DNA of 64,000 nucleotides from an uncultured Acetatifactor sp. (lineage in GTDB: Bacteria > Bacillota > Clostridia > Lachnospirales > Lachnospiraceae): positions 166,530 to 230,529 of the forward strand of contig CANPWA010000001.1 in assembly GCA_947581865.1 (NCBI GenBank). Direction: 5' to 3'. A model generated the notes under the pieces. It was given only the letters and a program-made list of their open reading frames with translations. It ran no database searches and had not been told where the DNA came from. The stretch's first letter is position 1. Each line of letters opens with the position of its first letter. A program made the translations under genes and the position numbers. Shown one piece after another: positions 23,984 through 43,080 of the stretch.

Positions 23984-25225
23984 ATGCGGAAAGTGCTAAA
24001 GGGCTGCACCGGGGTGATCCGCGGGGTGATCTTCATAGGCTTCAGCGTCCAGATCGTTCTGGGAATTCTCTGGATGTTCAATGCTTTTGCGAGGCTGCAC
24101 AGCCTGGGCAGAGGCATTGTCTGCGTGGGTCAGATTTTTGCGGCTGCCCTTGCAGTTTTCTTTTTCCTGAGATGTGCCGGGGGAGAGCGGCGCAGGCTCA
24201 ATCTTTGGCAGAGCGGTTTTGCGGTGCTGGCTGTTCTTACGTTTCCCATGGTGATGCAGTGTCTGACGGAGCCGGACAGAAGAGTATTTGCCGCCGCGCT
24301 TCTTTTGGGGGAGAGCGGCTGTATCTGCGGCAGGCTGTGCCGGGAAGAAAGCGGCGGACAAAAAGGTTTTCCCATTCTCGGGGCATGCTGCTGGCTTGCG
24401 GCAGGGCTGCTTTTGGGGGAATATCTCTGGCTGGGACTGTTTCCCATGCTCTGTTATATTTTTCTGGAGAGGGGCTGCCCGGACCGGGGAATGGGGTTTG
24501 TGTTGGGAAAGGTGATGCCGGTTCTCGCCGTGGGAGGGCTGATCGGGGGAATCGGCAGTTTTTATCGGGAGCCGGACGATTTCGCGGCAGTGATGGCGGA
24601 CCGGGTTGCCTGGACCACCCTCTATTCGGATTATTCCCGGCTGCCGGAAGAGTACCGGAAAATGATTCCCTATGACGTGCTGACGGAGAGCACCTATGAG
24701 GTGACAGGCGTCAAAACGATCCTGGTGCCTGCCCTGGAGGAAAAACTGGGGATTGACGGGACGCGTCAGATCCTGTGGGAGCTGAGCGCGGCTGCATGGA
24801 AAGGCAGCAAAGCGCGGATCGTGAAGGAAATGGTCTGGGATGCCGCGGGATATCTGATCCCTGCGACAGTGGTTCCCCTGCAGCTTGAGGGAAGGGCGTA
24901 CGACTCTTATACGGGAATCAATTACCGGCAGCTTCTGCTGCCCGCTCCCCGTCTGGGGAAATGGTATATGGATTATGGCTGCTGGTGGTTTGGGACCGCC
25001 CTGATCCTGCGCATGGCTTTGTGGCTGCTCACAGAACGCCGGGTGGAGCGGAAAGCATTGCTTGCGGCGGGGGGAACGATGCTGTTCTGCGCCATATGGT
25101 ACGCCTTGAGCGGCGCGGGCAAGATGGATTATAAAAATACAATGTATGGGCTTAGTCTGTGGATGCTGTGGTTTGCGCCGGCGGCTTTTGATGCCGCAGA
25201 GGCGGGCGGGGAGGATTTACCATGA
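23984..25225 (+). CDS. Hypothetical polytopic membrane protein
   Basis: Multiple TM segments around a long extracytoplasmic loop; RBS AAAGGAG before ATG. Confidence 0.6.
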   Translation: MRKVLKGCTGVIRGVIFIGFSVQIVLGILWMFNAFARLHSLGRGIVCVGQIFAAALAVFFFLRCAGGERRRLNLWQSGFAVLAVLTFPMVMQCLTEPDRRVFAAALLLGESGCICGRLCREESGGQKGFPILGACCWLAAGLLLGEYLWLGLFPMLCYIFLERGCPDRGMGFVLGKVMPVLAVGGLIGGIGSFYREPDDFAAVMADRVAWTTLYSDYSRLPEEYRKMIPYDVLTESTYEVTGVKTILVPALEEKLGIDGTRQILWELSAAAWKGSKARIVKEMVWDAAGYLIPATVVPLQLEGRAYDSYTGINYRQLLLPAPRLGKWYMDYGCWWFGTALILRMALWLLTERRVERKALLAAGGTMLFCAIWYALSGAGKMDYKNTMYGLSLWMLWFAPAAFDAAEAGGEDLP

Positions 25226-26985
25226 AAAGAGAGAGGGTTCTTTTTGCGGCAGGTTTTGCCGCCGTGGCGCTTCTTTCACTGCCCTGTATGCTTCTCGGAG
25301 AGCAGGCAGTCTTTACCTATCACGACCAGCTGGACGGGGAACTGCCCGCATATATCCTGCAGGCAAAGCACCTTTGGGACGGTGACGTTCTGCCTGAATT
25401 TTTGGGAGGGGCGTCCAAGACCGCGCTGATGCCGCCTGCCCCGGGCTGTGTTCTCCTGTTTCGGGTATTGTCTCCGCTGACTTCGCTGATCCTCATGCAG
25501 CTTGCGGGCAGCCTGGCAGGGTATGTGGGAATGTATCTGTTGTGCAGGAAGGCAGCGGGAAATGAGACCGCGGCGCTGATCGCGGGGGGCTTTTATGCCG
25601 CCCTGCCTTTTCTCCCGGTGTACGGGCTTTCCCAGTTTGGGCTGCCCCTGCTTTTGTGGTGTGTGCTCTGCGCCCGGGATGGGAAGGGGGGCAGGTCGCT
25701 TGCGGGGGCGGCGCTTTATGGGCTGGTCTATGCCTTTCATTCCTCTTTGGTCTTGGTGGGATTTGGCGTGCTGGGCGTGCTGGCGCTGTGGATTTTTTGG
25801 GAGTTGTCCGGTGTGTTCAGGGAGCCCTCCGAAAAAATAACGGCAAAACGCGGCGGGCTGCGCATGGGAGTGCTCTGGCTGTGCCTGTGCATCCCCTATC
25901 TTCTGTGCAATCATGACCTCATCGCTCAGCTGTTGGGCGCGGGGGATGCCGCAAGTTCCCACAAGGAGGAATATGTGCTTTCCGGCACGGGGCTGTGGCC
26001 GGGCTGGTGGTCCGCCCTGCTTCACGGGGGTCAGCACAGCGAGGATTATCACCTGGGTTTTGCCCTGTTTGTGGCAGCGGTTCTGGGGCTGTGCATTTTC
26101 CGCAGACATCGGGACTCTTCTCGGACGGATATCCGGCGTGTCATGACCACAGCGCTGACAGGGATCCTGCTGCTGGCAGGTATTTCCGCTCTTTGGAATA
26201 CTTCTGCGGCAGTCTCTCTCCGGGGACGAATGGGCGCCTTGGGCGCCTTTCAGCTGGATCGGCTGTTGTGGCTTTGCCCCTGTCTCTGGTATCTGCTTTT
26301 GGGGTGTGCGCTGGCGTATGTCATGCGCCTGCTTCGGGAGGAGAAAACCTTCGCAAGGGCTTTGGGTGCGGCCGGCTGTATTCTGGCAGTGGTCTCTTTG
26401 GGAGTGACCGGGCTGGGGATCTTGAAAAACAGCGATGTCAAGTCGAACCTGCAGAAGCTCTGCAATGCGGATTATCCTGCGTTTAGCTACGGTGATTATT
26501 ACGCGGTGGGCGTGATGGAACAGGTGCGGGATTTTATGACGGAATATACGGGGGAGGAGCCGGAGGCGTACCGGGTGGTGAGCTTAGGGATCGACCCGGC
26601 AGCCGCCCTGTATCACGGATTTTACTGTCTGGACGGTTATTCCAACAATTATTCCCTGGAATATAAGCACCGCTTCCGCAGAGTGATCGCTCCCGCGCTT
26701 GAGGAAAGCGAGTATCTGCGGGATTATTTTGACGACTGGGGCAATCGTTGTTATCTCTTTGGCACCGAGAGCCCGGGGTATTACACCATCGAAAAGAACG
26801 GATTTTATTTTCAGCATCTGGAGTGTGACACAAAGGCGCTCAGAGAGCTTGGGGGGAATTATCTTTTTTCTGCCGCCTATATCGCCAACAGTGACGAGCT
26901 GGGGCTGACGCTTCTGCGGGAGGAGCCCTTTGAGACCCAGGAGAGTTACTATCGCATTTTTGTCTATGAGGTGGCAGAGCCCTGA
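25222..26985 (+). CDS. Polytopic membrane protein, DUF6044-like (paralogue of 8213-9958)
   Basis: TYHDQLDGELPAYILQAKHL, PVYGLSQFGLPL, LDGYSNNYSLEYKHRFRRVIAPALEES, WGNRCYLF; ATGA overlap. Confidence 0.65.
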   Translation: MKRERVLFAAGFAAVALLSLPCMLLGEQAVFTYHDQLDGELPAYILQAKHLWDGDVLPEFLGGASKTALMPPAPGCVLLFRVLSPLTSLILMQLAGSLAGYVGMYLLCRKAAGNETAALIAGGFYAALPFLPVYGLSQFGLPLLLWCVLCARDGKGGRSLAGAALYGLVYAFHSSLVLVGFGVLGVLALWIFWELSGVFREPSEKITAKRGGLRMGVLWLCLCIPYLLCNHDLIAQLLGAGDAASSHKEEYVLSGTGLWPGWWSALLHGGQHSEDYHLGFALFVAAVLGLCIFRRHRDSSRTDIRRVMTTALTGILLLAGISALWNTSAAVSLRGRMGALGAFQLDRLLWLCPCLWYLLLGCALAYVMRLLREEKTFARALGAAGCILAVVSLGVTGLGILKNSDVKSNLQKLCNADYPAFSYGDYYAVGVMEQVRDFMTEYTGEEPEAYRVVSLGIDPAAALYHGFYCLDGYSNNYSLEYKHRFRRVIAPALEESEYLRDYFDDWGNRCYLFGTESPGYYTIEKNGFYFQHLECDTKALRELGGNYLFSAAYIANSDELGLTLLREEPFETQESYYRIFVYEVAEP

Positions 26986-27018
26986 GGAACAAAGTTCCAA
27001 AGAAGCAAGAGGAGACAG

Positions 27019-28842
27019 ATGGGAAAAGAAGATAGAAAGCCGCTTGCCGGAAAAGTAACTGCATATGGACCGGAGTTTTTGGTCATCCTGCTGTGCGCGG
27101 TGCTTTTGCTGGGCGATATCAGTCATAAAAAGGGTTACCACATGGATGAACTTTTGAGCTTTGAACTTGCAAATGCGCTGTTTAATCCGTGGATCGTGCC
27201 CACCCAGCCCCAGGGAAGGCTGGCGAAATTTGTGGAAGATGAGCTGCGGGGTGAAACCTTTGGGGAAACCTGTAAAAACCTTGCGGATACGGTGCAGGAT
27301 ATCCTGCAAAACCGCGGGAACAGCAAGATCCTGTCCTATCAGGCGGATGTGTATCCGGAGCCGGTGTGGATCACCAGACAGCAGTTCCTCGATTATATCA
27401 CGGTGGATGACGGGGATGCCTTCCAATATCTGTCGGTATATTTTAATGTAAAGGACGACAATCATCCCCCTCTGCACTTTATGGCGCTGCATACGGTATG
27501 CTCCCTTTTCCGGGGACGGATCACACCTCTGATGGGATGCGGGATCAATCTCGTGTGTGTGCTGGGTGTCATGGGCATGCTGATGTGGCTGGGACGCAGA
27601 CTGCTGGCCGGGGAGTATTCCGACGGCTCAGAAAACAGCTATGGAAGGTGGACGGGGCTTTTCGCGGCAGCGCTCTACGGGCTGTCCGCGGGGGCGCTCT
27701 CCACCACACTTTTGATCCGGATGTACGCCATGGTGACATTCTTTTGTGTGGCATTCTTTGCCATACACATAGACAGGCTCTATGGCAGGCATGGTTTTGC
27801 GAAGGGCAATAAACTCCTGTTTGCAGTGACAGTGCTGGGATTCTGGACACAGTATTTCTTTCTGTTCTATTGTCTGATCCTGGCGGCAGTGACGGTTGTG
27901 GTCTTATGGCGCGGAAAACGCAGAAAAGAGCTGTGGGCGTATGTCAGAACGGAGCTGTCTGCCGCTGTGGCGGGAGTACTGGTATTTCCGTTCTCCATCC
28001 CGGACGTGTTCTCCAGCGGAAGGGGAGTGGAGGCATTGACAAATCTCTCCTTAGGGCTTTCCGGCTATGGGGAGCGGCTTGCCGCATTCGGGAAAATTCT
28101 GACGGAGCGTCTGGGCGTGGGCTGTGTGGCTCTGATGCTGGCAGCCCTGGCGGCAGAGCTTGTCCTTTTGTTTTGCAGGAGAAGGAATACGGATCAAAGC
28201 GGCGGCAGGGACAAAAAGCCTGCCTCTTCCCGCACGGCGGAGAAGATCTGTGTGTGTGTTCTGCCGGCGGCAGGATATTTTCTGCTGGCGGCGCGCATGT
28301 CCCCCTATCTGGTGGACAGATATATCATGCCCCTGTTTCCCTTTGCGGTCCTTTTTATGGTAACGGCAGTGATGTGGCTTGCCGTGCGGCTGAGAGGGAC
28401 AGGAAGCTTACGCCCCGCACTGGGTAAGGTGCTGCCTGCGGCAGTGCTTCTGGCGGCAGTGGTCTGCCAGCTTTGGGATCCTCTGCGGTATCAGGACAGC
28501 TATCTCTATGAGAACTACCCTGTCCAGGAGGCGATCGCGGAGCAATACGCCGGGCTGCCCTGCATCTGTGTGGGGGAGGGTGTGGGGTATTACGAAAATC
28601 TCCTGGAGTTCACCCACTATGAGAAAACCCTGATCCTGACGCCCGGGGAATTGGAAAACCGCAGAGAGAGAGCCTCCCTCGACTCTCTGGAACAGGCGGT
28701 GCTGCTCCTGAAGGACGGGACGGACCGGGAGGCGGTGTGTGATATTCTGGAGAAAGAGTACGGGCTGTCTCCCCGGGAGACGCTGCTGGAGACCGGGAGC
28801 GTGTACGGCGACAGAATCCTATTGTTAAAACGGAGAAAATAG
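27019..28842 (+). CDS. GT39/ArnT-like (PMT_2) glycosyltransferase-type membrane protein
   Basis: HMDELLSFELANALFNP, DNHPPLHFMALH motifs and many TM helices. Confidence 0.7.
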   Translation: MGKEDRKPLAGKVTAYGPEFLVILLCAVLLLGDISHKKGYHMDELLSFELANALFNPWIVPTQPQGRLAKFVEDELRGETFGETCKNLADTVQDILQNRGNSKILSYQADVYPEPVWITRQQFLDYITVDDGDAFQYLSVYFNVKDDNHPPLHFMALHTVCSLFRGRITPLMGCGINLVCVLGVMGMLMWLGRRLLAGEYSDGSENSYGRWTGLFAAALYGLSAGALSTTLLIRMYAMVTFFCVAFFAIHIDRLYGRHGFAKGNKLLFAVTVLGFWTQYFFLFYCLILAAVTVVVLWRGKRRKELWAYVRTELSAAVAGVLVFPFSIPDVFSSGRGVEALTNLSLGLSGYGERLAAFGKILTERLGVGCVALMLAALAAELVLLFCRRRNTDQSGGRDKKPASSRTAEKICVCVLPAAGYFLLAARMSPYLVDRYIMPLFPFAVLFMVTAVMWLAVRLRGTGSLRPALGKVLPAAVLLAAVVCQLWDPLRYQDSYLYENYPVQEAIAEQYAGLPCICVGEGVGYYENLLEFTHYEKTLILTPGELENRRERASLDSLEQAVLLLKDGTDREAVCDILEKEYGLSPRETLLETGSVYGDRILLLKRRK

Positions 28843-29937
28843 ATGGAAAGTATGCCCTTAGTGATTCGGATCTTCATAATGGCGCTGTGGCTGTCCGTCA
28901 TCCCTGCGGCGGCGGGAGGCTGCTTTCAGAGAGTTTTAAAGCGTGACGGCGCTTCGGGGAATCCCGCGGCGGCGCGGGTGGTTTTTGGCTGGGTGAGCGG
29001 TCAGATGCTGCTCTGGGCGGTGTTTCAGGCATTGTGTGTTCCCTGTGTGCTCCGGGAGTCAACTTTTGACAAGGTAGTCCGCCTCTTTGAAGCGGCAACA
29101 GCCGCGCTTGTCCTTGCGGGGGCAGTGATCATGATCGTACAGAGGGAAAAAATAAAGCCTGTGCCCGGCCCGGAACGCTCCGGAAAAAACCGGGTGCAGA
29201 CAGGGCTGTGGCTCTGTTTCTTTGTTCTGCTGGGGCTGCAGCTGGTACAGGCGCTGCGCCTCACCTACGCGGACGGCGATGACGCCTACTATGTGGCGGT
29301 CTCCACCATCACGGAAAATGCAGAGACCCTGTACCGCAAGCTCCCCTATACGGGGGGAACCACCAGCGTGGACATAAGACATGGTCTGGCGCCCTTTCCC
29401 ATCTGGATTGCCTTTCTGGCAAGGGTAAGCGGCATCCCCACAGTCAGCGCCGCACACATTGCCGTGCCCCTGATGCTGATCCCCATGACTTACGGAATCT
29501 TTTATCTGCTGGGCAGACGGATGTTGAAAGGAAAGAAAAACGCCCTGCCCTTGTTTCTGATCTTTACGGAGCTGCTGACGCTGTTCGGTGACTACTCATT
29601 TTATACGGTGGAAAACTTTATGCTGGCGCGCAGCAGACAGGGAAAGGCAGCTCTGGGGAGCATCATCTTTCCCATGCTTTTGCTGCTTTTGCTGGTGTTT
29701 GCCGAAAGGATTTCGGAAGGGAAAAAGAGCGGTGCATCCTACTGGATTTTGTTGTGCTCTGTCATGACGGCAGGATGCCTTTGCAGCACCGTGGGATCGT
29801 TTCTTTCATGCCTGTTTGTGGCGGTTTCGGGAATCTGTATCGCTGTGGCTTACCGCCGGTTTAAGGTGCTGCCGCCCCTTGCGCTGTGCTGTGCGCCCTG
29901 TGTCTGTTATGCGCTGCTTTATCTGACCCAGCCATGA
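28843..29937 (+). CDS. DUF6077-like polytopic membrane protein (N-terminal part?)
   Basis: Hydrophobic ORF with YADGDDAYYVAVSTITENAETLYR extracytoplasmic motif; ends at TGA TAA. Confidence 0.55.
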   Translation: MESMPLVIRIFIMALWLSVIPAAAGGCFQRVLKRDGASGNPAAARVVFGWVSGQMLLWAVFQALCVPCVLRESTFDKVVRLFEAATAALVLAGAVIMIVQREKIKPVPGPERSGKNRVQTGLWLCFFVLLGLQLVQALRLTYADGDDAYYVAVSTITENAETLYRKLPYTGGTTSVDIRHGLAPFPIWIAFLARVSGIPTVSAAHIAVPLMLIPMTYGIFYLLGRRMLKGKKNALPLFLIFTELLTLFGDYSFYTVENFMLARSRQGKAALGSIIFPMLLLLLLVFAERISEGKKSGASYWILLCSVMTAGCLCSTVGSFLSCLFVAVSGICIAVAYRRFKVLPPLALCCAPCVCYALLYLTQP

Positions 29938-30766: not shown

Positions 30767-30794
30767 TTGCATATTTTTATCAGAAGCTTATAAT
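30767..30794 (+). promoter_or_regulatory. Putative sigma-A promoter
   Basis: TTGCAT - 16 nt - TATAAT upstream of the Rpn-family gene. Confidence 0.5.
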
Positions 30795-30843
30795 GAAAAG
30801 TACAGACAGATTTCCCCTGCCAACATTCGACAAAGGAGAATTT

Positions 30844-31644
30844 ATGGCAAAAAGGAAATTTGAAGACCTGAACTTAAAAGACGCGTTTTTGTTTGGTGCT
30901 GCGCTGGAGGACGAGGAGACCTGCAGGCTGTCCCTGGAGCTTATGCTGGGGAGAGAGATTTCCTCCGTGACGGTGCACGCCGAACACACCATTTTCTACA
31001 ACTCCGACTACCGCAGTGTCCGGCTGGACATCTTTGCGACGGACGAGGAGCAGAGCCGCTACAATGTGGAGATGCAGGGGGTGAGCCGGGGAAACCTCGC
31101 CAGGAGAAGCCGTCTGTATCAGGCGCAGCTGGATGCCTCGGCGTTAACCCCGGGGGAGAGCTTTGAAACGCTGCCTCCCGGATATGTCATCTTTGTGTGT
31201 GCATTTGACCCCTTCGGGAGCGGGCTGTACCGCTACACCTTTGAAAACCGCTGCCTGGAGACGGGGATGCCCCTGGAGGATGGAGCAAGGAAGATATTTC
31301 TAAGCACCAGGGGGACGGATGACTCCGGGGTGCCGGAAGGGCTGGTGCACTTTCTGAAGTATGTGGAGGAGAGCACGGAGAGCTGTGCGAGGAGCCTGGG
31401 GGACGAGACGGTGAACCGGATCCACCGGCGCGTGGAGGAGTTGAAGAAGAGCAGAGAATGGGGGCAGAGGTACATGAAGTTTGAAGAGCTGTTAAAGGAT
31501 GCGAGGGAAGAGGGCATGGAAGAGGGAACCGCCCGTATGCAGCGTCTGATAGAGCGGATGACAACCGCCGGCGAGGCGCATCTGACGGCAAAGCTTTCCG
31601 ATACGGATTTTTTGAACGAGATGTACGAAAAGCATCAGATCTGA
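30844..31644 (+). CDS. Rpn family recombination-promoting nuclease / PD-(D/E)XK transposase-like protein
   Basis: NLKDAFLFGAALEDEETCRLSLELMLG, RLDIFATDEEQSRYNVEMQ (D...E-x-Q nuclease core), RRSRLYQAQLD; RBS AAAGGAG. Confidence 0.85.
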   Translation: MAKRKFEDLNLKDAFLFGAALEDEETCRLSLELMLGREISSVTVHAEHTIFYNSDYRSVRLDIFATDEEQSRYNVEMQGVSRGNLARRSRLYQAQLDASALTPGESFETLPPGYVIFVCAFDPFGSGLYRYTFENRCLETGMPLEDGARKIFLSTRGTDDSGVPEGLVHFLKYVEESTESCARSLGDETVNRIHRRVEELKKSREWGQRYMKFEELLKDAREEGMEEGTARMQRLIERMTTAGEAHLTAKLSDTDFLNEMYEKHQI

Positions 31645-32083: not shown

Positions 32084-35000
32084 ATGAGCAAAAAGCTTAA
32101 AAAGCAGCTGGGTAAAATAATGTCCGTTATTTTATCGGTTGCAATGCTTGTAGGGACGCTTCCGGCAGATCTGCTGGGAGGGATTGCAAGCGTAAGTGCG
32201 GCTGAGAATGCAGATGCTGCAGCCAAGATCACCTATGAACAGGGTGAATGGGCGGCAGACGGAGAGACTCAGAGCCGTACCACAACTTGGGAATTCGTCA
32301 CGAAATCTCAAGAAGCTGGCGACTCCTTTACGGGCGCTACGATTAACGAGGGCGATACCGCCTGCGGGATCACGGCGCTGGCAGGAAAGGTCAGTGTAAA
32401 GATGACAGGGCAGGGCTTTACTTTGGGTGCAGATGCGTCGGCATCTTTGCCTTTGGATAAAGACACCACTTCTGTTGTATTGAAAATAACAATGGCAAGT
32501 ACCAGTAGCGGCAGGGCGATCACGGTGGGTGATGCCGAATCCGTTGTCTTAGCCCATGGCAAAGAACTGAAAAAAGGTGAGGAATATACGTCAGAAGCAC
32601 TGGGCGCCGGGTACATGACCGTTGCGGATGATGGTACTAAGACATTAAAGCTGACTAACGGAATTGTCGAGGGAGGCTCGGCCGGCGATAGCAAGATTGG
32701 TCAGATCACTATCGTGGAGACCAAAGCTGCCGGAGGCAGTGAAGAAGGCGGCGGCGGGGAGTCCGGCGGCGGTGGTGACACCGGAAACACCGATACCGAG
32801 TCCAAGACTTATGTACTGGAAAGCAAAGACCTGGCTGCTTTTGCGCAGAACGCAAAGCAGGACAGTGAGACGGAGACTGCGGGTACGGACGGTTTCTTTA
32901 CCCTTATATACAGTACAAAATCTGCGATCAATGAAAGCTCAAAAACCTGGACGGATGGATATACGTCCGGACAGAGGATTAACTTTGGCGGTAAGGCTGA
33001 TGTTAAAAAGAATTCCATCAAGTTTACCACGACCAATGCTGCGACGGTGAAGATCTGGTTTGTACAGGGTGGATCTGATAACCGCCAGATGGTAATCCTG
33101 AATGAGGGCGGCACAGAGGTGACAGCTACCGCATTGGAGGGAATGGCACAAAATAGTCCCTACTACGGCGAGCTGGAACTGGAGGATGCCGGTACCTATT
33201 ATTTGGGAGGAAAAACCGGTAACAACTATATATATAAGGTAGAGGTAGATGTTGCCGGCGAATCCGGCGGAGAGACCCCTGCCAATGTTGAAGCAACCGT
33301 GACCGTGGAAAATAAGGAGCTGCTTTCCGAGGGAGACACCATCAAGCTGGTGGATGCTGAAGGAAAAGAAGTTGCTGTAACCGATGGCGGAAAGGTTACT
33401 TTGACAGTAGGCGCTGCTTATACCGCAGCTGTTAAGACTGCGGAGGGAACGGCGAAGGAAGGCTTTGGCGCCAAGATCAACGGTGAAAACAGCGTTACGG
33501 CGGCTGCGGATACCACGGAGCTGAAGATTACGGTGATATCCACCAAGGCTGAGGTGACTCCTTCCATCACGTTCGCTGAGGGAAGTGATTTTGGCACGAA
33601 CAAGCTCTACGCTGTAAACGGTACAAAAAAAGAGGTAGAGCTGAAAAACGGCGAAGCTGCTTTGCTGGAGAAGGAGACACTCTACAGCCTTGTTGTAAAG
33701 GATGCAGAGGGTAAGACTCTCGCGGCATGGAAAGCAGATGCAAACGCAAGCGGCAAGGCGGAGTTTACGACTTCTGCGGAGGAGAAGCAGACCGTTGCGA
33801 TTGTTCTGACGAAAGTTGCCAATGTAAAAGTGACTCCTGTTATCGAGGGCAAGGATCTGCTGGGTACCAGCAACAAGGTTGTCCTGACGGTAGGGGGGGA
33901 CAGCGTTGAAGTTGTCTCCGGAAAGGAGCTTTCGCTTCTTGCCAGCACAACATATGATATTGAGATCAAAGATGCCAATGGAAAGAAAGTAGACTCTCTT
34001 GAGGCTCTTGTGGATTCCAAGAAGACATACACTACCGGTGCGGAGGATGGCGCTGAGGTGACCATCGTTGTAAATGTACCCGTAACCAAGAAGACCACCT
34101 GGGATAAATTTGCAAAGACCGACGGAACACCGGAACTCGGGCAGGAGCTGCCTTCTAATCCCGGTATTTTGTATCAGGAGAGGGGAACCAGTTCCGGATG
34201 TTCCTACGACGGAACGCTTCGTTTCCGTCCCGGAGTTGTGCTGTATCTGCTTCTGCAGGACAGTACCACGAAAGTGACATATGCCCAGACCTGCAGCGCT
34301 ACCAATGCAGGCAGACCTACCTATGTAGGAGGCAAGGACAGCGGTTATCAGGTGGAGATGACCTCCACAGAGAGTTCTGTCACCATTGATGACGTCACGG
34401 ATCTGGTAGTGACACTGGATGGCAAGAGATATCTGCCTATCGAATCCGGCGGTGACGTAAAGATCAAGTCCATTACTCTGACAGAGTACAGCCCCGTAAA
34501 CGAAGTGACCGTGAGCGGTACGGTCAGCGGAGTAAGCGGCAAGAACATTACAGAGATCAAGTTCAAGAATCTTGACAATCCCAAGGCAGAACTTGTGAAG
34601 GCTGTTTTGGACGGGAGCGGAAAGTACACCGCGAAACTGAGACGTGTTGCCGGAAGGACCAATTATGCGGCAGTTATCTCCGCAGTGGGCTACAAGATCG
34701 ATGACGCAAACGATGCGGATAAGTTCACCCTGCTTGGAAACGATGCGACTGCAACACAGGATTTCTCCATCGCAGAGGCACCTGTGGCTACCGTTTCCGG
34801 TAAGATCACCGGTATCACCGATGTGAAGGGTGATTTGGGCGTTTCCCTGATCCCTGATAATACTGCGCTTGCGCCGATCGAGCTGACAGTGACGAAGGGC
34901 GCGAATAATGAGTATACCTATAAGGATGCTGTGCTGGAGGCTGGCAGAAAGTATACTGTCGAGCTGACCAACGCGGATGACTTTGAGGTAACCGGAGAGT

Positions 35001-38000
35001 TTTCTGTTGCAAAGGATGAGACCACTCATGATATTGCGGCAACTCCCAGGACCACATATGAGGTGAGCGGTAAATTAGTGACTTCCGACAAGAAAACAGC
35101 GAATGTCACCAAGATTACCTTTACCAATATGGACAAAAAGGAGTATTCCTACACCTTCGATGTGAAGGACGGAGCGTATACTGCCAAGCTTCGCACGGCA
35201 GAGTATGAGACCAGTGTGGATGGCAGCGATTATACCGCGTTCGACCATGTGAGCGTGAAGGATGCTGCAGTTACAAATGATGTATATCTGCAGGGTGCGG
35301 TTGACACCTCCGCTGTAGAGTACAAGGCAGAGGTTACTGTGGGCGAGGGCAAGGATTTCTCCACCATCGCCGAGGCAGTGGCTTATATCTCCCGGATGAC
35401 CAGAACGGATGATCAGAGAGTGACCATCGTTTTGGAAAAGGGTAAAGTTTACAGGGAGCAGCTGGTGATCGATACTCCCAACATTACCATTAAGGGTAAT
35501 GGCTCTACCATTACCTGGTACTATGGCGTGGGCTTCTCTTACTACAGCGCGAAGCTTTCCTCAGATGGCAAGAGCGCATATTACGACGAGGCTTATGCAG
35601 TAGATAAGTATACCAAGACCACGATCTCCCAGAATCCCGGCCACTGGGGAGCTACCGTAAATCTGCTCGCAGGCGCTAAGGGCTTTGCGGCAGAGGATCT
35701 GACCTTCGAGAATTCCCTCAACAGATATATGACCAAAGAGGAGATTGCGGACGGTGCGGATGGCAATACGGATGCAGGCGTAACCAGAAGAACGGATGAA
35801 AATATTGATGTCCTTTCCAAGAAGGCGAAGGAGAGAGCGTGCGTTCTTTACATTCAGGCGGATGACACCACCTACAAGAACTGTAATCTGCTGAGCAGAC
35901 AGGACACCCTGTATACCGGTGATGCAGATGAGAATTCCTATTTCCTGAATTGTACCATTGAAGGTAATGTGGATTATATCTGCGGCGACGGCAACCCCGT
36001 GTTTGATAAGTGTACCTTGAGCATGTATGGATATCCGGAAGCTTCAACGGGCGCATACATCGTTGCAAACAAGGCAAAGGCAAAACACGGATATCTGTTC
36101 AACAACTGTAAGATCGTACAGTCCAGCCAAAAGGGGCTGCTCCCTACCACCGAAAACATTCTGGTGCGTGCATGGGATGCCGGTACCGTGGTATGGCTGA
36201 ACACAGAAGTGGCTACGGCGGACATGATCAGCGCTGTGGGTTATGCAGACATGAATGCAACCGTGGCAGCCTCTCATTATTACGAGTATAATACCCATAC
36301 GCCCGACGGCAAGGCGGTTGATGTCAGCGGACGTCCTGCGGCAGGTGTTACCATCATGACCAAGGCAGAGGCGGAGGCGGTTGAGCTGACCTCTTACTTT
36401 GACGGATGGAAGCCTCTGTACTATGAAGGCAAGATCATGCTCAATGATCTGAACCTTAAGATTACTGCACCTGTGGCAGGGGAAGCTCCCGATACCTCTG
36501 TGAGTCTGAGCCAGACGGGCGTGACCCTGAAGTCCCAGAATGTGACCTGGTATGAGGAAGGCGCTTCCGAGGCATTCACAGGCGCAGCCTTTGGCGATGA
36601 GACAGTGTATGTTGCCAAAGTGGATCTGCAGCTTGACAGCATCTATGGCTTTGGTCCCAAGCTGAATGTGGCAGGAGACAGCGCCGCATTGGGCGTGGAT
36701 TACACAGAGAATAAAGACGGAAGCGTCACTGTCAGCGTGCGTTATGCGACAGGCATTACCGGGCTTTATGATATTGATCTGAGCCAGGGGCTTAAAAAAG
36801 GTGTGGAGTATCCCGGCGGCATCTCCGTGCTGGAGGATATGGCTGCCAAGGGTAATACCACTGTAGACGGTGTGGAGTATCCCCATACTGTCCAGGGTAC
36901 CGGAAATCCCTCACCGAATAAGGGCGAGATCCCTGCGTCAGGTGCCGTGCTTGTGCTGAACGCGGAAAAAGACGGCAAACTGACGGTGGTTTCCACCACG
37001 ACAGGCAAGACCCTGCACTTTGTTCATGGATCGGATAAGACGGATGAGCTGAATACATCGCCTTCTGCTGCCGCAACCTATACGTTCAGTGTCACGAAGG
37101 GAGAGACCTATTACTTCTACGGCGACGGAACGAAGGTGGTACTGGCAAGCATTGTGGTAAATTACAGCGATGCAAAACCCGGCGACTGGAGTAAAGTTGC
37201 CGCTCCGGAGATTGTTGACGTGGCGGTAGGTCAGATCGGCGCTGCGGACACCAACGGTGCAAAACCCGGAGAGATCAAGGTTCGCGCAAAGGGTCTGATC
37301 AGCCTCAACGGCGGCGACAAGATCGAAGTGGATATGATCGATGCCCGGGGCAATGTTGTGGATACCCAGATCAATGGCGCTAAGAACTATACTGCAAAGG
37401 AGCCCGTTGCCGAGGTTACATTTACTCCCACGGCTTCCGGCGAGTATACCTTCATCGCGAGACTGGTGAGATCCGGCGAGAAAGACAAGACAAGCGCTGA
37501 GTCGAAAGCGGCAGCCTTTGTGCTTCCCATGGGGCATGCTGTGATCGCCAGCGTGACCAATAAGTGTGCGGCAGCCGATGCAAAAGACGGCGATCTGACA
37601 GGAGCGCTGGAAGTTGTATGGAGCAAAGTGCCCGAGGCTAGAAGCTACACCGTGACTGTTGTCACTTCCGCAAAGACCTATACTGTGGATACCACATCTC
37701 TCAGCACGGTTGTAAAAGAGCTGCCCGTGGGCGAGACCGTGACGGTTTCCGTGACGGCCCATGGCGGAGATGAGAAGAATGTATCCGTACCCAGCAAGGA
37801 AGACAGAGACCTGGGCGAATACAAAGTTACCAACCAGAACAACAGAACCTGGACCTATGCTGCATTTGGAAGCGGCGTTGATACCAAGAATAACAGCGCG
37901 ACGCCTAAGTTTGGCGCGGACGGCAATCTGGAGTCCGTAAACGTAAAGAGTACCGGCGGCAAGGGTAAGATCGTGCCCGGTTCCACGGACGGTCTGGCAT

Positions 38001-41000
38001 ACTACTACACGGCGATCGATCCTGCGACAGAAAACTTCACGCTGACCGCAAAAGTAAGTGTGAATACATGGACGCTTTCCAACGGTCAGGACGGTTTCGG
38101 TATGATGGTTGCCGATGCGGTAGGCGAAGACGGCAACGGTACGGCATTCTGGAACAACTCCTATCAGCTGCTCTCCAGCAAGATTGAGTATTACTGGGAT
38201 GCAAGTGCAAATGAAGGAAAAGGTGCGGTGACCACCTCCTCCGAATATCCGAAGTACACCATGAAGCTTGGTCTTGGATGGACGGCAAAAGAAGGCACCA
38301 CATTGACGGATGTCAATAAGATTGCGGCAGGTCAGCAGTCCATGCCTGCGAACTTCTCCACCACTTCCGGAACATTGGAGACATACGCTCCTCAAAACGG
38401 TAAGGATAAAGGTGAGTACAATATCGTAGGTAAGAGAACGGCTCTTGCGGACAAATCTGCTGAGGCAACACAGAAGGAGAAGGATATTCTCTCATTAACC
38501 GAGTTTACTCTTCAGATTCAGAGAAATAACACCGGTTATATCCTCAGATATCTGAATGAGAAGAATGAGGTGATCAACGAGAAGACCTTCTACGATGATG
38601 ACAGAAATAAACTGACCCAGATCGACAAGAAGAATATCTATGTAGGATTCTTTGCAAGCAGAAACGCTGACATTACGGTAAGTGATATTACCCTGACCAC
38701 GATCCTGCCCGAGGAGGATGATGCGGCAGCGGCAAAAGAGATCACTTATGTGGATCCCGATTATAAGATCCTGTCTGCAGTCACTTCCAACTCTGAGGAA
38801 TATGAGCTGGTTTACTACGGCAATGCAGACGGCAAACTGACCATCGTGGATGCCAAGGGCAATCTGCTGGCGCAGAGCCTTGAAGTGAGCGCGAAGAAGA
38901 AGTACAGCTTTGGCTCCAAGCTGGATGAGGGTACGAACAAATTTGAAATCGTATTTGTACCCAATTCCGACTATGTGCCGGGCGACAATCAGAAACTGAG
39001 CAACTATAATAAGTGGGTATCTTCCCATAAAGTAGAGTATCGCCGTCTGGGTGATGTGATCTATGTAGCACCTAACGGACAGAGTACCAATGACGGTTCG
39101 GAAAACAGCCCTGTGGATGTTTATACCGCAGTGGCTTATGCGGCACCCGGACAGACCATTTATCTGGCAGGCGGTACCTACAACTTGGAGGATCCGATCC
39201 TGATCGACAGAGGGCATGACGGTACTGCCAAGCAGCCCATCAAAATGCTGGCAAAGAATACGGATCAGAGCAACAGACCTATATTTAACTTTAGCAATCA
39301 GAAAGACCAGTCCGTCACTTCCTTTACCATGGCAGCTGACTACTGGCATTTCAAGGGATTTGATGTGACGAAGTCGCCCAATGCCCAGAAGGGTATCCAG
39401 GTATCCGGCGACCACAATGTACTGGAACTGCTGAAGACCTATGAGAACGGCAATACCGGTATCCAGATCAGCCGTTATCTGGGAAGCGACAGCTATGCAG
39501 ACTGGCCTTCCTACAACACTGTTCTGAACTGTACCTCCTATCTGAATGCAGATGCGGGTTACGAGGATGCAGACGGATTCGCGGCGAAGCTGACCGTGGC
39601 TGACGGAAACAGGTTTGTGGGCTGTATCGCAGCTTATAACGCGGACGACGGCTGGGATCTCTTCGCAAAGGTTCAGTCCGGCAGCATCGGTTCCGTGACC
39701 ATCGAGAACTGTCTCGCGTTCAAGAACGGTTATGTGATGGATGAAACGCATACGCAGGTGATCAATGCCGGTAACGGTAACGGATTCAAGATGGGCGGCG
39801 ACAGCATGAGCGGTTACCATGTCCTGAAGAATTCCGTGGCCTTTGGCAACAAGGCAAAGGGTATTGATTCCAACAGCTGTCCTGACATTCAGATTTACAA
39901 CAGCACATCCTTTGACAATGAGAGCAACAACGTGGCATTCTACACCAATACTGCAGTAAATACCGATTACTATGCGGAGGGTATTTTGTCCCTGAAGACT
40001 TCCAATGCGGTGGCAGAGAATATCAAGCCTGTTGGTACTCAGAATAACAACAAGATTTACGGCGCAAGCAACTATTACTTTAACGGTTCCAAGTCTGTAA
40101 ACAGTGAAGGTAAAGAAGCAAGCCTTGACTGGTTTGTAAATACCGACATGGAGTCAGGCATCAAGGGGATCACCAGAAAAACAGACGGTACCATCGATAT
40201 GGGTGATTTCCTGAAGCTCAGTGAAAAGGCGCCCGCAAACGTAGGCGCAAGACTCTATGAGAGCACTTCCGCAGATGAGGTTTTGGTTGCATCCGCAGAG
40301 GTAGATGTATACGCGGGAACGGTAAATACTCTGGCAGAAGTAAAACTTCCCGAGGAGCTTCAAGAGGAGGGTTACAGCTGGAAATATCCCGAGACCCTTA
40401 CCTCCGTATTTGCAGGAACCAGCGTAGAGTTCATTGCAGCCGCTGAGAATAAAGCGGACAGGGCAGTGACGGTGAACTTTGTGGAAGTGACCGGTGTTGC
40501 CTTGGAGCTGGATGAGGAGGCGCTGCCTCTGATCGGCGAGGACGAAGTTGAGATTACCGTTGTACCGGTAACGGCGCCTGAGATCGATCTGGAGGATGTT
40601 CAGAATGCGCCTGAGGTTACGCTCACATTGAGCGAGACCAGCAGGCTGGGACTGAGCATTGCCAATGCAGAAGGCAGTAAGGATGTCTGGACGGTAAAGA
40701 GAGCTGCAAACTCCGGAGAGGGTCTTGCAAAACTCACCGCAAAGATCACTGCCGCCAAATCCGGGACGAAGACGGTTACAAAGCAGGTAAGCTGCAGCTT
40801 TATCACCAGAGCGGCGGAGAACACCATCAGCTATAAGATCACAGATCAGACAGACGGCATAACGATTGAAGGAACAGACACCGCGGCAGACAAAGTCACC
40901 ATGACCTCCAAGGATTCCTTCACGCTCAGCGAGCTGAAAGCTTCTTTGACCGGCAAGGCAGCAGCAAACACCAAGGTGAATGTGTCTGTGAGCGATACCA

Positions 41001-42991
41001 AGGTGATCAAAGTTGACGCGGCACACAAAGTAACTGCAGTGGGCAGCGGATATGCGACCATCATCCTGACCGCGGCAGGCGACAAGACAGTGGTGGCGAA
41101 GATCCCCGTGTCTGTGGAGGACGGTCTGTTGAAGACCAACGTGACCACACTTACCGTAGATAAGGCAAAGACTTCCGGAGCACAGTTCGTAGTGGTTGGG
41201 GAGAATGCTGTCACAGGCATTGTTGTGGCTTCCGCTAAGAAGGGCAAAAACGGTGCCGATCAGAAGGATTGCTTTGCGATTGAAAATGTCAACGGCAATA
41301 TCTACACGATCAGCATCAAAGACAGTGGGACGACGATCCCCGTAGGTACCTACACGGTAGAGCTCAAGACCGACAATGAACTGCCCTTCGAGGCAATTAC
41401 TGTCAAAGTGATCGAGACCAAACCTGTTGTAAGCATCAAGCAGCCCAAGAAGGTAAACCTGTTCTACAAGACAGGCAGCCCTTCCGGAAACGGCACACTG
41501 ACCGCTTCTTCCAAACTGGCAGGCGTAACCCTGACCCAGAAGGATCCGGATAAGGATGACTTCAGACTGACGGCTACAAAGAGCGGCTACAATGTGGTCC
41601 TGAAAGGTTCCGCAGCAGGGAAGAAAGCAAACCAGATCAACAAAAAAGTGCCTGTGACCGTAAGCTTTGACGGCTACAAGAGCGCATACAACAAGGATAT
41701 GGTGATCAATGTTTCCATCCAGACGAAGGCTCCCAAGCTGGTTCTGGAGGTAGATAACAGAGTGCTGTATACACAGCTTGGCATCACCAGCACTCCGGTG
41801 CGCATTTTCAATAAGGACGAGAACACTTATGTGAGCGGAGCCGATGTGATCCTGGCAAACTCCAAGGCATCCTATGTGAATGCGAACAAGGCATTCTATC
41901 TTGAGGAGGAGAACGGTGAGTATATCCTCCACGCGGATAAGAGCGGAAGCGCTAAGATCAGCGTACAGGATGCTGACTGGGCACAGGAAGTAGTCATCAG
42001 CCAGCCGATCACTGTGAACAAGAGTAAGCCCAGGGTAACCATCGCGGCTTCCAAGCTGAACGGTTATGCAGACTTTACCGGGCTGGAGCAGTCCACCGCA
42101 GTGATCAGCGTAAAGAACGCGCTGGATTATAAAGTCAAGAATCTGACTCTGACCGGTGCAAACTCTCAGGCAACCGAGCTGTTAAGGTACATGGACTATG
42201 AAGTTGCCGAGAATGACCTCGGACAGCAGGTACTGGTTCTGACCCTGAGCAGACAGCTCCCTGTGGGATACAACGGCAAGTGTATCTTCAACGGAACTTA
42301 CAGATTTACAGCGAATTTCGGATTGAATAAGCTGGGCGACATGAAGGCGGATGTGAGAGTTACCATATCTCCTACCCTGAACATTACCACGAAGCAGAAG
42401 GGCAGCATTGATCTGGTGAACAGAACAGGAAGCTCCATCACCCTGACTCCTGCCATCAGAAACCTCAACGGTATTATTGTCGGCATGAGCCTTGCCGATG
42501 ATGCAAGCAACCAGTTTGATGTGGAATGGGACAGCGCAAAGGGTGCGGCTGTCATAACCGCAAAAGAAGAGATCGATCTGAAGAAGGGGACCAGATATAA
42601 AGTGACTCCGATCTATGAGATCGAGCTGGAGTATGGCACTGTGGAAGTGACCGGAAGATCCTTCAATATTGTTCCCAAGCAGTCCACCGTGAAGACCACA
42701 GCGCTCTCTGTACTGGAGACCAGACTTTCTACCGGCAGCCCTGCAATGACGACAGTTGTTGCAACCTCTCCTGCAAAGGCAGAGATCCTGGGCATGACTC
42801 AGGTGAGCGAGCTTGACAGATTTGAGATCGATTACGATGCACAGAGCGGCAACCTGGCAGTTTATGTACTGGACGGTGCGGCAGTAAAGACGGGTACGAC
42901 CTATAGGATCGCGGTTGAACTTGAGGTGAAGGATGCCGGTGTAAACACCAAGGCACAGAAGATCACCATTCCCGTAAAGGTTGTTCAGTAA
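32084..42991 (+). CDS. Giant secreted bifunctional pectinase: CE8 pectin methylesterase + PL9 pectate lyase + accessory and Ig-like domains (3635 aa)
   Basis: Signal peptide MSKKLKKQLGKIMSVILSVAMLVGTLPADLLGGIASVSAAE; CE8 motifs VGEGKDFSTIAEAV, QDTLYTGD, VDYICGDG, LVRAW; PL9 motifs YVAPNGQSTNDGS, DADGFAAKL, NADDGWDLFAK; RBS GGGAGGAAAGG. Confidence 0.88.
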   Translation: MSKKLKKQLGKIMSVILSVAMLVGTLPADLLGGIASVSAAENADAAAKITYEQGEWAADGETQSRTTTWEFVTKSQEAGDSFTGATINEGDTACGITALAGKVSVKMTGQGFTLGADASASLPLDKDTTSVVLKITMASTSSGRAITVGDAESVVLAHGKELKKGEEYTSEALGAGYMTVADDGTKTLKLTNGIVEGGSAGDSKIGQITIVETKAAGGSEEGGGGESGGGGDTGNTDTESKTYVLESKDLAAFAQNAKQDSETETAGTDGFFTLIYSTKSAINESSKTWTDGYTSGQRINFGGKADVKKNSIKFTTTNAATVKIWFVQGGSDNRQMVILNEGGTEVTATALEGMAQNSPYYGELELEDAGTYYLGGKTGNNYIYKVEVDVAGESGGETPANVEATVTVENKELLSEGDTIKLVDAEGKEVAVTDGGKVTLTVGAAYTAAVKTAEGTAKEGFGAKINGENSVTAAADTTELKITVISTKAEVTPSITFAEGSDFGTNKLYAVNGTKKEVELKNGEAALLEKETLYSLVVKDAEGKTLAAWKADANASGKAEFTTSAEEKQTVAIVLTKVANVKVTPVIEGKDLLGTSNKVVLTVGGDSVEVVSGKELSLLASTTYDIEIKDANGKKVDSLEALVDSKKTYTTGAEDGAEVTIVVNVPVTKKTTWDKFAKTDGTPELGQELPSNPGILYQERGTSSGCSYDGTLRFRPGVVLYLLLQDSTTKVTYAQTCSATNAGRPTYVGGKDSGYQVEMTSTESSVTIDDVTDLVVTLDGKRYLPIESGGDVKIKSITLTEYSPVNEVTVSGTVSGVSGKNITEIKFKNLDNPKAELVKAVLDGSGKYTAKLRRVAGRTNYAAVISAVGYKIDDANDADKFTLLGNDATATQDFSIAEAPVATVSGKITGITDVKGDLGVSLIPDNTALAPIELTVTKGANNEYTYKDAVLEAGRKYTVELTNADDFEVTGEFSVAKDETTHDIAATPRTTYEVSGKLVTSDKKTANVTKITFTNMDKKEYSYTFDVKDGAYTAKLRTAEYETSVDGSDYTAFDHVSVKDAAVTNDVYLQGAVDTSAVEYKAEVTVGEGKDFSTIAEAVAYISRMTRTDDQRVTIVLEKGKVYREQLVIDTPNITIKGNGSTITWYYGVGFSYYSAKLSSDGKSAYYDEAYAVDKYTKTTISQNPGHWGATVNLLAGAKGFAAEDLTFENSLNRYMTKEEIADGADGNTDAGVTRRTDENIDVLSKKAKERACVLYIQADDTTYKNCNLLSRQDTLYTGDADENSYFLNCTIEGNVDYICGDGNPVFDKCTLSMYGYPEASTGAYIVANKAKAKHGYLFNNCKIVQSSQKGLLPTTENILVRAWDAGTVVWLNTEVATADMISAVGYADMNATVAASHYYEYNTHTPDGKAVDVSGRPAAGVTIMTKAEAEAVELTSYFDGWKPLYYEGKIMLNDLNLKITAPVAGEAPDTSVSLSQTGVTLKSQNVTWYEEGASEAFTGAAFGDETVYVAKVDLQLDSIYGFGPKLNVAGDSAALGVDYTENKDGSVTVSVRYATGITGLYDIDLSQGLKKGVEYPGGISVLEDMAAKGNTTVDGVEYPHTVQGTGNPSPNKGEIPASGAVLVLNAEKDGKLTVVSTTTGKTLHFVHGSDKTDELNTSPSAAATYTFSVTKGETYYFYGDGTKVVLASIVVNYSDAKPGDWSKVAAPEIVDVAVGQIGAADTNGAKPGEIKVRAKGLISLNGGDKIEVDMIDARGNVVDTQINGAKNYTAKEPVAEVTFTPTASGEYTFIARLVRSGEKDKTSAESKAAAFVLPMGHAVIASVTNKCAAADAKDGDLTGALEVVWSKVPEARSYTVTVVTSAKTYTVDTTSLSTVVKELPVGETVTVSVTAHGGDEKNVSVPSKEDRDLGEYKVTNQNNRTWTYAAFGSGVDTKNNSATPKFGADGNLESVNVKSTGGKGKIVPGSTDGLAYYYTAIDPATENFTLTAKVSVNTWTLSNGQDGFGMMVADAVGEDGNGTAFWNNSYQLLSSKIEYYWDASANEGKGAVTTSSEYPKYTMKLGLGWTAKEGTTLTDVNKIAAGQQSMPANFSTTSGTLETYAPQNGKDKGEYNIVGKRTALADKSAEATQKEKDILSLTEFTLQIQRNNTGYILRYLNEKNEVINEKTFYDDDRNKLTQIDKKNIYVGFFASRNADITVSDITLTTILPEEDDAAAAKEITYVDPDYKILSAVTSNSEEYELVYYGNADGKLTIVDAKGNLLAQSLEVSAKKKYSFGSKLDEGTNKFEIVFVPNSDYVPGDNQKLSNYNKWVSSHKVEYRRLGDVIYVAPNGQSTNDGSENSPVDVYTAVAYAAPGQTIYLAGGTYNLEDPILIDRGHDGTAKQPIKMLAKNTDQSNRPIFNFSNQKDQSVTSFTMAADYWHFKGFDVTKSPNAQKGIQVSGDHNVLELLKTYENGNTGIQISRYLGSDSYADWPSYNTVLNCTSYLNADAGYEDADGFAAKLTVADGNRFVGCIAAYNADDGWDLFAKVQSGSIGSVTIENCLAFKNGYVMDETHTQVINAGNGNGFKMGGDSMSGYHVLKNSVAFGNKAKGIDSNSCPDIQIYNSTSFDNESNNVAFYTNTAVNTDYYAEGILSLKTSNAVAENIKPVGTQNNNKIYGASNYYFNGSKSVNSEGKEASLDWFVNTDMESGIKGITRKTDGTIDMGDFLKLSEKAPANVGARLYESTSADEVLVASAEVDVYAGTVNTLAEVKLPEELQEEGYSWKYPETLTSVFAGTSVEFIAAAENKADRAVTVNFVEVTGVALELDEEALPLIGEDEVEITVVPVTAPEIDLEDVQNAPEVTLTLSETSRLGLSIANAEGSKDVWTVKRAANSGEGLAKLTAKITAAKSGTKTVTKQVSCSFITRAAENTISYKITDQTDGITIEGTDTAADKVTMTSKDSFTLSELKASLTGKAAANTKVNVSVSDTKVIKVDAAHKVTAVGSGYATIILTAAGDKTVVAKIPVSVEDGLLKTNVTTLTVDKAKTSGAQFVVVGENAVTGIVVASAKKGKNGADQKDCFAIENVNGNIYTISIKDSGTTIPVGTYTVELKTDNELPFEAITVKVIETKPVVSIKQPKKVNLFYKTGSPSGNGTLTASSKLAGVTLTQKDPDKDDFRLTATKSGYNVVLKGSAAGKKANQINKKVPVTVSFDGYKSAYNKDMVINVSIQTKAPKLVLEVDNRVLYTQLGITSTPVRIFNKDENTYVSGADVILANSKASYVNANKAFYLEEENGEYILHADKSGSAKISVQDADWAQEVVISQPITVNKSKPRVTIAASKLNGYADFTGLEQSTAVISVKNALDYKVKNLTLTGANSQATELLRYMDYEVAENDLGQQVLVLTLSRQLPVGYNGKCIFNGTYRFTANFGLNKLGDMKADVRVTISPTLNITTKQKGSIDLVNRTGSSITLTPAIRNLNGIIVGMSLADDASNQFDVEWDSAKGAAVITAKEEIDLKKGTRYKVTPIYEIELEYGTVEVTGRSFNIVPKQSTVKTTALSVLETRLSTGSPAMTTVVATSPAKAEILGMTQVSELDRFEIDYDAQSGNLAVYVLDGAAVKTGTTYRIAVELEVKDAGVNTKAQKITIPVKVVQ

Positions 42992-43045
42992 TCTGACCGG
43001 AGGCTGTTGATCGGACAGATGTAAGGAAATGATAGTGTAATACGG

Positions 43046-43080
43046 CAGGGGACGCTGCATATGCAGCGTCCCCTGTTTTT
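43046..43080 (+). terminator. Rho-independent terminator
   Basis: Perfect 30-nt palindrome CAGGGGACGCTGCAT/ATGCAGCGTCCCCTG followed by TTTTT. Confidence 0.9.

Follow-up and report, generated by a model that had tools for sequence, protein, structure and literature searches.

A predicted secreted pectinase of 3635 residues joining CE8 and PL9 modules in an uncultured Acetatifactor sp.

Pectin breakdown in the gut and rumen frees methanol that feeds methane-forming archaea, and for this reason secreted methylesterases have been proposed as methane-lowering targets (PMC12109409). A CE8 methylesterase and a PL9 lyase on one chain were described in 2025 in PmeC5 of Butyrivibrio fibrisolvens D1T (2089 aa, WP_073390447, PDB 9MM2; PMC12109409), a secreted protein with adhesin-like modules and an annotated glucan-binding (YG repeat) domain. 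Three further enzymes serve as references for the separate modules. PemA of Dickeya (PDB 1qjv/2ntb) is a stand-alone CE8 enzyme with QD, VD[FY] and R.W catalytic motifs and a glutamine at position 153. Pel9A (PDB 1ru4) is a stand-alone lyase, 400 residues in the PDB chain, with the PL9 fold, four calcium-site aspartates and a catalytic lysine, and PelX is an exo-pectate disaccharide-lyase of family PL9 that has no CE8 module.

We analysed a 64,000-nucleotide stretch of DNA (the window) from an uncultured Acetatifactor sp. A preliminary description had reported one 3635-aa open reading frame containing both CE8 and PL9, and this was borne out: the frame is uninterrupted, both modules score above their Pfam cut-offs, and the positions first given for them were correct to within a few residues (Table 1). 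Like PmeC5, the encoded giant protein combines CE8, PL9 and accessory modules on one chain that is putatively secreted, judging the signal peptide by eye. It differs from PmeC5 in length (3635 v 2089 aa), in its longer beta-sandwich blocks, including a C-terminal block of 910 aa, and in that no glucan-binding (YG repeat) domain was found in it. The giant is very probably a secreted modular pectin degrader, a fusion of a CE8 protein with a PL9 protein of the PmeC5 kind, in which CE8 would act before PL9.

Modules and catalytic residues

Just 5' of the ATG of the giant gene is a putative GGAGG-type ribosome-binding site, GGGAGGAAAGGAAC. The first 40 residues are lysine-rich, contain a hydrophobic core and end in ...ASVSAAEN, resembling a Gram-positive signal peptide, and from this translation the protein is probably secreted. 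The hairpin that follows the gene suggests that it is transcribed apart from the next one.

Table 1. Features of the giant gene and its 3' neighbourhood, in window coordinates.
Feature	Position	Strand	Basis
Giant CE8–PL9 ORF, 3635 aa	32084..42991	+	Uninterrupted frame, ATG start
Signal-peptide-like N-terminus, aa 1–40	32084..32203	+	Translation judged by eye
N-terminal modules and CE8, aa 35–1477	32186..36514	+	blastp, 41% identity to G044 CE8 protein
CE8 pectin methylesterase module, aa 1077–1448	35312..36427	+	PF01095; matches to 9mm2, 1qjv, 5c1e
R1251, at PemA Gln153 position (= PmeC5 Arg206)	35834..35836	+	Alignment; PMC12109409
Q1273-D1274 (QDT; = PemA Gln177-Asp178)	35900..35905	+	Alignment
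D1297 (VDYICG; = PemA Asp199, nucleophile)	35972..35974	+	Alignment
R1362-A-W1364 (= PemA Arg267/Trp269)	36167..36175	+	Alignment
Seam between halves, aa ~1477–1571	36512..36796	+	blastp boundaries v G044 and G049 proteins
PL9 half, aa 1571–3635	36794..42988	+	blastp, 49.7% identity to G049 PL9 protein
Fibronectin type III-like module, approx. aa 1820–1915	37541..37828	+	Alignment A2 profile v PDB; AlphaFold model
Pre-PL9 module common to PelX, aa 2135–2320	38486..39043	+	NF041903 match
PL9 pectate lyase module, aa ~2321–2724	39044..40255	+	PF22842; 1ru4; own HMM, aa 2319–2719
D2497 (DADGFA), calcium-site Asp	39572..39574	+	Alignment
D2521, D2522, D2525 (NADDGWD), calcium-site Asp residues	39644..39658	+	Alignment
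K2569 (NGNGFKMGG), candidate catalytic base (Pel9A Lys)	39788..39790	+	Alignment
C-terminal block, aa 2726–3635, tandem Ig/cadherin-like beta-sandwiches	40259..42988	+	Predicted structure
Terminator-like hairpin, 15 pairs, T-rich tail	43044..43077	+	3' of giant gene
PL1 pectate lyase with CBM77 and Listeria–Bacteroides repeats, ORF 1436 aa	43169..47479	+	Pfam

Scanned in isolation, the CE8 module scored 84.5 bits against PF01095 (Pectinesterase; cut-off 27), and its closest solved relative across the entire module was PmeC5 (9mm2; aa 1069–1428, E 4e-26). The motifs QDT, VDYICGDG and RAW, picked out in the preliminary description, hold Q1273-D1274, D1297 and R1362/W1364, which align with PemA and PmeC5, so that the residues defining CE8 membership (the catalytic aspartate pair, the arginine and the oxyanion glutamine) are all present. 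D1274, D1297, R1362 and W1364 are invariant in the alignment of 38 CE8 relatives, and the oxyanion-type Q1273 is kept in 37 of the 38, with lysine in the one exception. The proline of the LGRPW motif is replaced by alanine between R1362 and W1364.

The PL9 module, like the accessory modules, was missed when the whole protein was scanned with Pfam; scanned alone, it matched PF22842 (Pel9A-like) at 55.1 bits against a cut-off of 25.2. Pel9A (1ru4) matches aa 2325–2644 (E 1.6e-41); this E-value and the one for 9mm2 lie well outside what chance would produce. DADGFA, NADDGWD and the downstream lysine had also been singled out before, and the five residues concerned align with those of 1ru4 and are unchanged in 93/93 PL9 relatives; all core catalytic residues of the giant thus find their counterparts. 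Unlike Pel9A, this PL9 module is part of a fusion. The NCBIfam PelX profile (NF041903) matches aa 2135–2711 at 222 bits, short of its equivalog cut-off of 1490; the likeness extends over the PL9 beta-helix as well as the module preceding it, and a match below the cut-off gives no ground for ascribing an exo mode to the giant.

The additional beta-sandwich and Ig-like modules proposed earlier were seen in AlphaFold models and by fold comparison. The region between CE8 and PL9 (aa 1455–2320) is predicted to be all-beta with a mean pLDDT of 82, the same mean as was obtained for the C-terminal 910 residues. Of 13 relatives from the same PL9 clade, nearly all retain the C-terminal block right to the end of the chain. 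By sequence it matched nothing significantly in the PDB, and comparison with solved folds returned generic Ig/cadherin/S-layer-like matches with low TM-scores, so we withhold a specific function for it. The host genome encodes a related block elsewhere too, within an ORF of 1841 aa. Pfam recognised no carbohydrate-binding family in the accessory modules, whether in the whole protein or in isolated modules, nor was a surface anchor recognised in these regions; for that reason we infer wall or cell binding by the accessory modules rather than assign it. Aa 277–375 weakly resemble 8x8h in the PDB (E 0.003), which hints at a binding module; a literature search on 8x8h found no paper. Internal repeats in the giant protein are weak only.

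Arginine at the PemA Gln153 position

The giant's CE8 lacks the Gln153-equivalent of classical pectin methylesterases and has R1251 in its place, an exchange it shares with PmeC5. Arginine occupied this position in 38/38 aligned CE8 modules of the long, secreted type (complete ORFs of 717–4344 aa). Glutamine was kept in 20 other CE8s, of which 17 are complete ORFs of 322–406 aa except for one of 733 aa, and a 390-aa CE8 in the same host genome also retains it; this split between giant Arg-type and short Gln-type enzymes holds for the sampled loci, which were gathered by similarity to the giant protein. The Gln153-equivalent is not needed for membership of CE8, given the arginine in PmeC5 and in each of the 38 giant-type relatives. 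Four further modules in the same alignment have serine here, in a SADA motif, and form a third type (loci L098, L099, L100 and L164); the L164 ORF is 1857 aa long and the other three are cut by locus ends. At locus L156 (genome G070, contig 13), two tandem Arg-type CE8 modules lie in one 2820-aa ORF.

The authors of PmeC5 also remarked on this replacement (Gln153/Arg206); from docking, in which scores were poorer and the substrate was displaced, they inferred that it alters how the substrate is positioned (PMC12109409). Their paper comprises structure and docking, with no activity assay in its method list. These docking results, the arginine at subsite -1 in every giant-type CE8 and the missing LGRPW proline in the giant would all fit an Arg-type CE8 that is catalytically silent, a module for pectin binding or of altered specificity, with PL9 providing the sole chemistry. 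We consider this unlikely: a dead domain would hardly retain both catalytic aspartates, the arginine and the tryptophan in 38/38 relatives and the oxyanion-type glutamine in 37/38. The conserved Gln-to-Arg exchange offers a single-residue test of specificity for an uncharacterised CE8 subgroup.

Fused relatives and proposed mode of action

Our sample, drawn from titled genome records and mostly of Lachnospiraceae, comprised 78 loci with PL9, and in 17 of them CE8 shared the PL9 ORF. Together with one further congener and the giant, these give 19 distinct fused ORFs. CE8 lies upstream of the main PL9 in 19/19, with an extra PL9 in front in three. Two, of 4344 and 4328 aa, exceed the giant in length; three others measure between 3463 and 3553 aa. 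The two longest are Lachnospiraceae ORFs with a PL9–CE8–PL9 layout (L021, 285–13316, and L022, 1016–13999). The giant had been called unusual at its size, a view that the 17/78 fused loci, the two longer ORFs and the PmeC5 precedent (PMC12109409) do not support: neither its size nor its CE8–PL9 pairing is exceptional within the sampled group. Thus, of the idea of a rare, secreted two-enzyme pectin degrader, the enzymes and the probable secretion stand, with intact catalytic residues and a signal-peptide-like N-terminus, and the rarity does not. In Lachnospira multipara and L. pectinoschiza, CE8 and PL9 are on adjacent genes.

We propose that the N-terminal CE8 would strip methyl esters from homogalacturonan, yielding methanol and free carboxylates, and that the downstream calcium-dependent PL9 lyase would then cut the demethylated galacturonan by beta-elimination. 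The FN3/Ig-like beta-sandwiches between and after the catalytic modules would act as spacers and probably as wall- or cell-binding elements. The pectinase neighbour (PL1–CBM77), the fixed order of CE8 before PL9 and the split homologues in congeners support this reading, as do the profile matches, the conserved catalytic residues and the PmeC5 precedent.

A stronger form of coupling, in which the pectin chain is handed from CE8 to PL9 inside one molecule, could likewise draw on two predicted activities sharing a chain and on the CE8-then-PL9 order of all fused relatives. We regard such a processive machine, as the preliminary description had it, as very improbable, given that about 870 residues of beta-sandwich separate the modules, the active sites are about 1200 residues apart, congeners carry both enzymes as separate proteins, and no sequence sign of processivity was found in the giant. 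As congeners hold natural split versions of both halves, the fused protein can readily be compared with separate enzymes.

History of the two halves and genomic setting

The N-terminal half of the giant matches a stand-alone CE8 protein of the congener G044, which has 1920 aa, a C-terminal LysM and no PL9 in that ORF. The PL9 half finds its counterpart in a PL9 protein of the congener G049 that likewise stands alone; the alignment takes in residues 345–2440 of its 2440 and runs to the shared C-terminus. Because the halves match separate congener proteins, the giant looks like a union of two secreted proteins at the seam. An assembly artefact merging two neighbouring genes is scarcely credible, even though the G044 genes for CE8 and PL9 (1627 aa) are adjacent, in the fusion's order and about 350 bp apart (L145, contig 48), as the giant's frame is open and stop-free over 10.9 kb, homologues align to either side of the seam, and the layout recurs in independent genomes, in Butyrivibrio proteins 3463 and 3553 aa long. 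The PL9 of L145 is not the closest relative of the giant's PL9.

In the CE8 tree, the giant and the unfused module of G044 were sisters (100/99), beside fused Butyrivibrio proteins; in the PL9 tree it grouped with eight unfused rows, again beside fused Butyrivibrio proteins. A single clade of all fused CE8 modules was rejected (AU test, P = 7.6e-7), as were a CE8 clade of the giant with L059, L065 and L053 (P = 3e-4) and one of the giant with L059 and L065 excluding the unfused L145 (P = 2e-4), these P-values being optimistic because the groups were picked after the tree was seen. The Butyrivibrio fusion L053 has its CE8 from the other clade and its PL9 in the giant's clade, a mismatch that, together with the rejection of a single fused-CE8 clade, points to module exchange.

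Tentatively, the secreted giant CE8s of gut Lachnospiraceae may form an Arg-type subfamily with an altered pectin preference, and CE8 modules may on several occasions have been attached to PL9, or exchanged in front of it, always in the same order; we think this possible without favouring it. If true, such repeated joining suggests recurrent selection for physical coupling of the two steps. It is also possible that the giant and L059/L065 descend from one fused ancestor, with later fission in G044 and loss of CE8 in the PL9 sister clade.

The giant and the PL1–CBM77 gene are a two-gene pectin island and not a full utilisation locus. The latter encodes a secreted pectinase whose signal peptide suggests that translation begins at an internal ATG, some 80 bases into the ORF. 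Further CE8 genes lie on other contigs of the same genome. Downstream (3') of the pair are dnaE and housekeeping genes, and immediately 5' of the giant gene is a PDDEXK-type (Rpn-like) transposase-family gene (30793–31644, + strand). Further upstream, a run of large DUF6044/DUF6077-type genes and a 607-aa ORF without a Pfam match (25222–29937, + strand) follows a DegT-type aminotransferase gene, and may be an envelope-glycan cluster.
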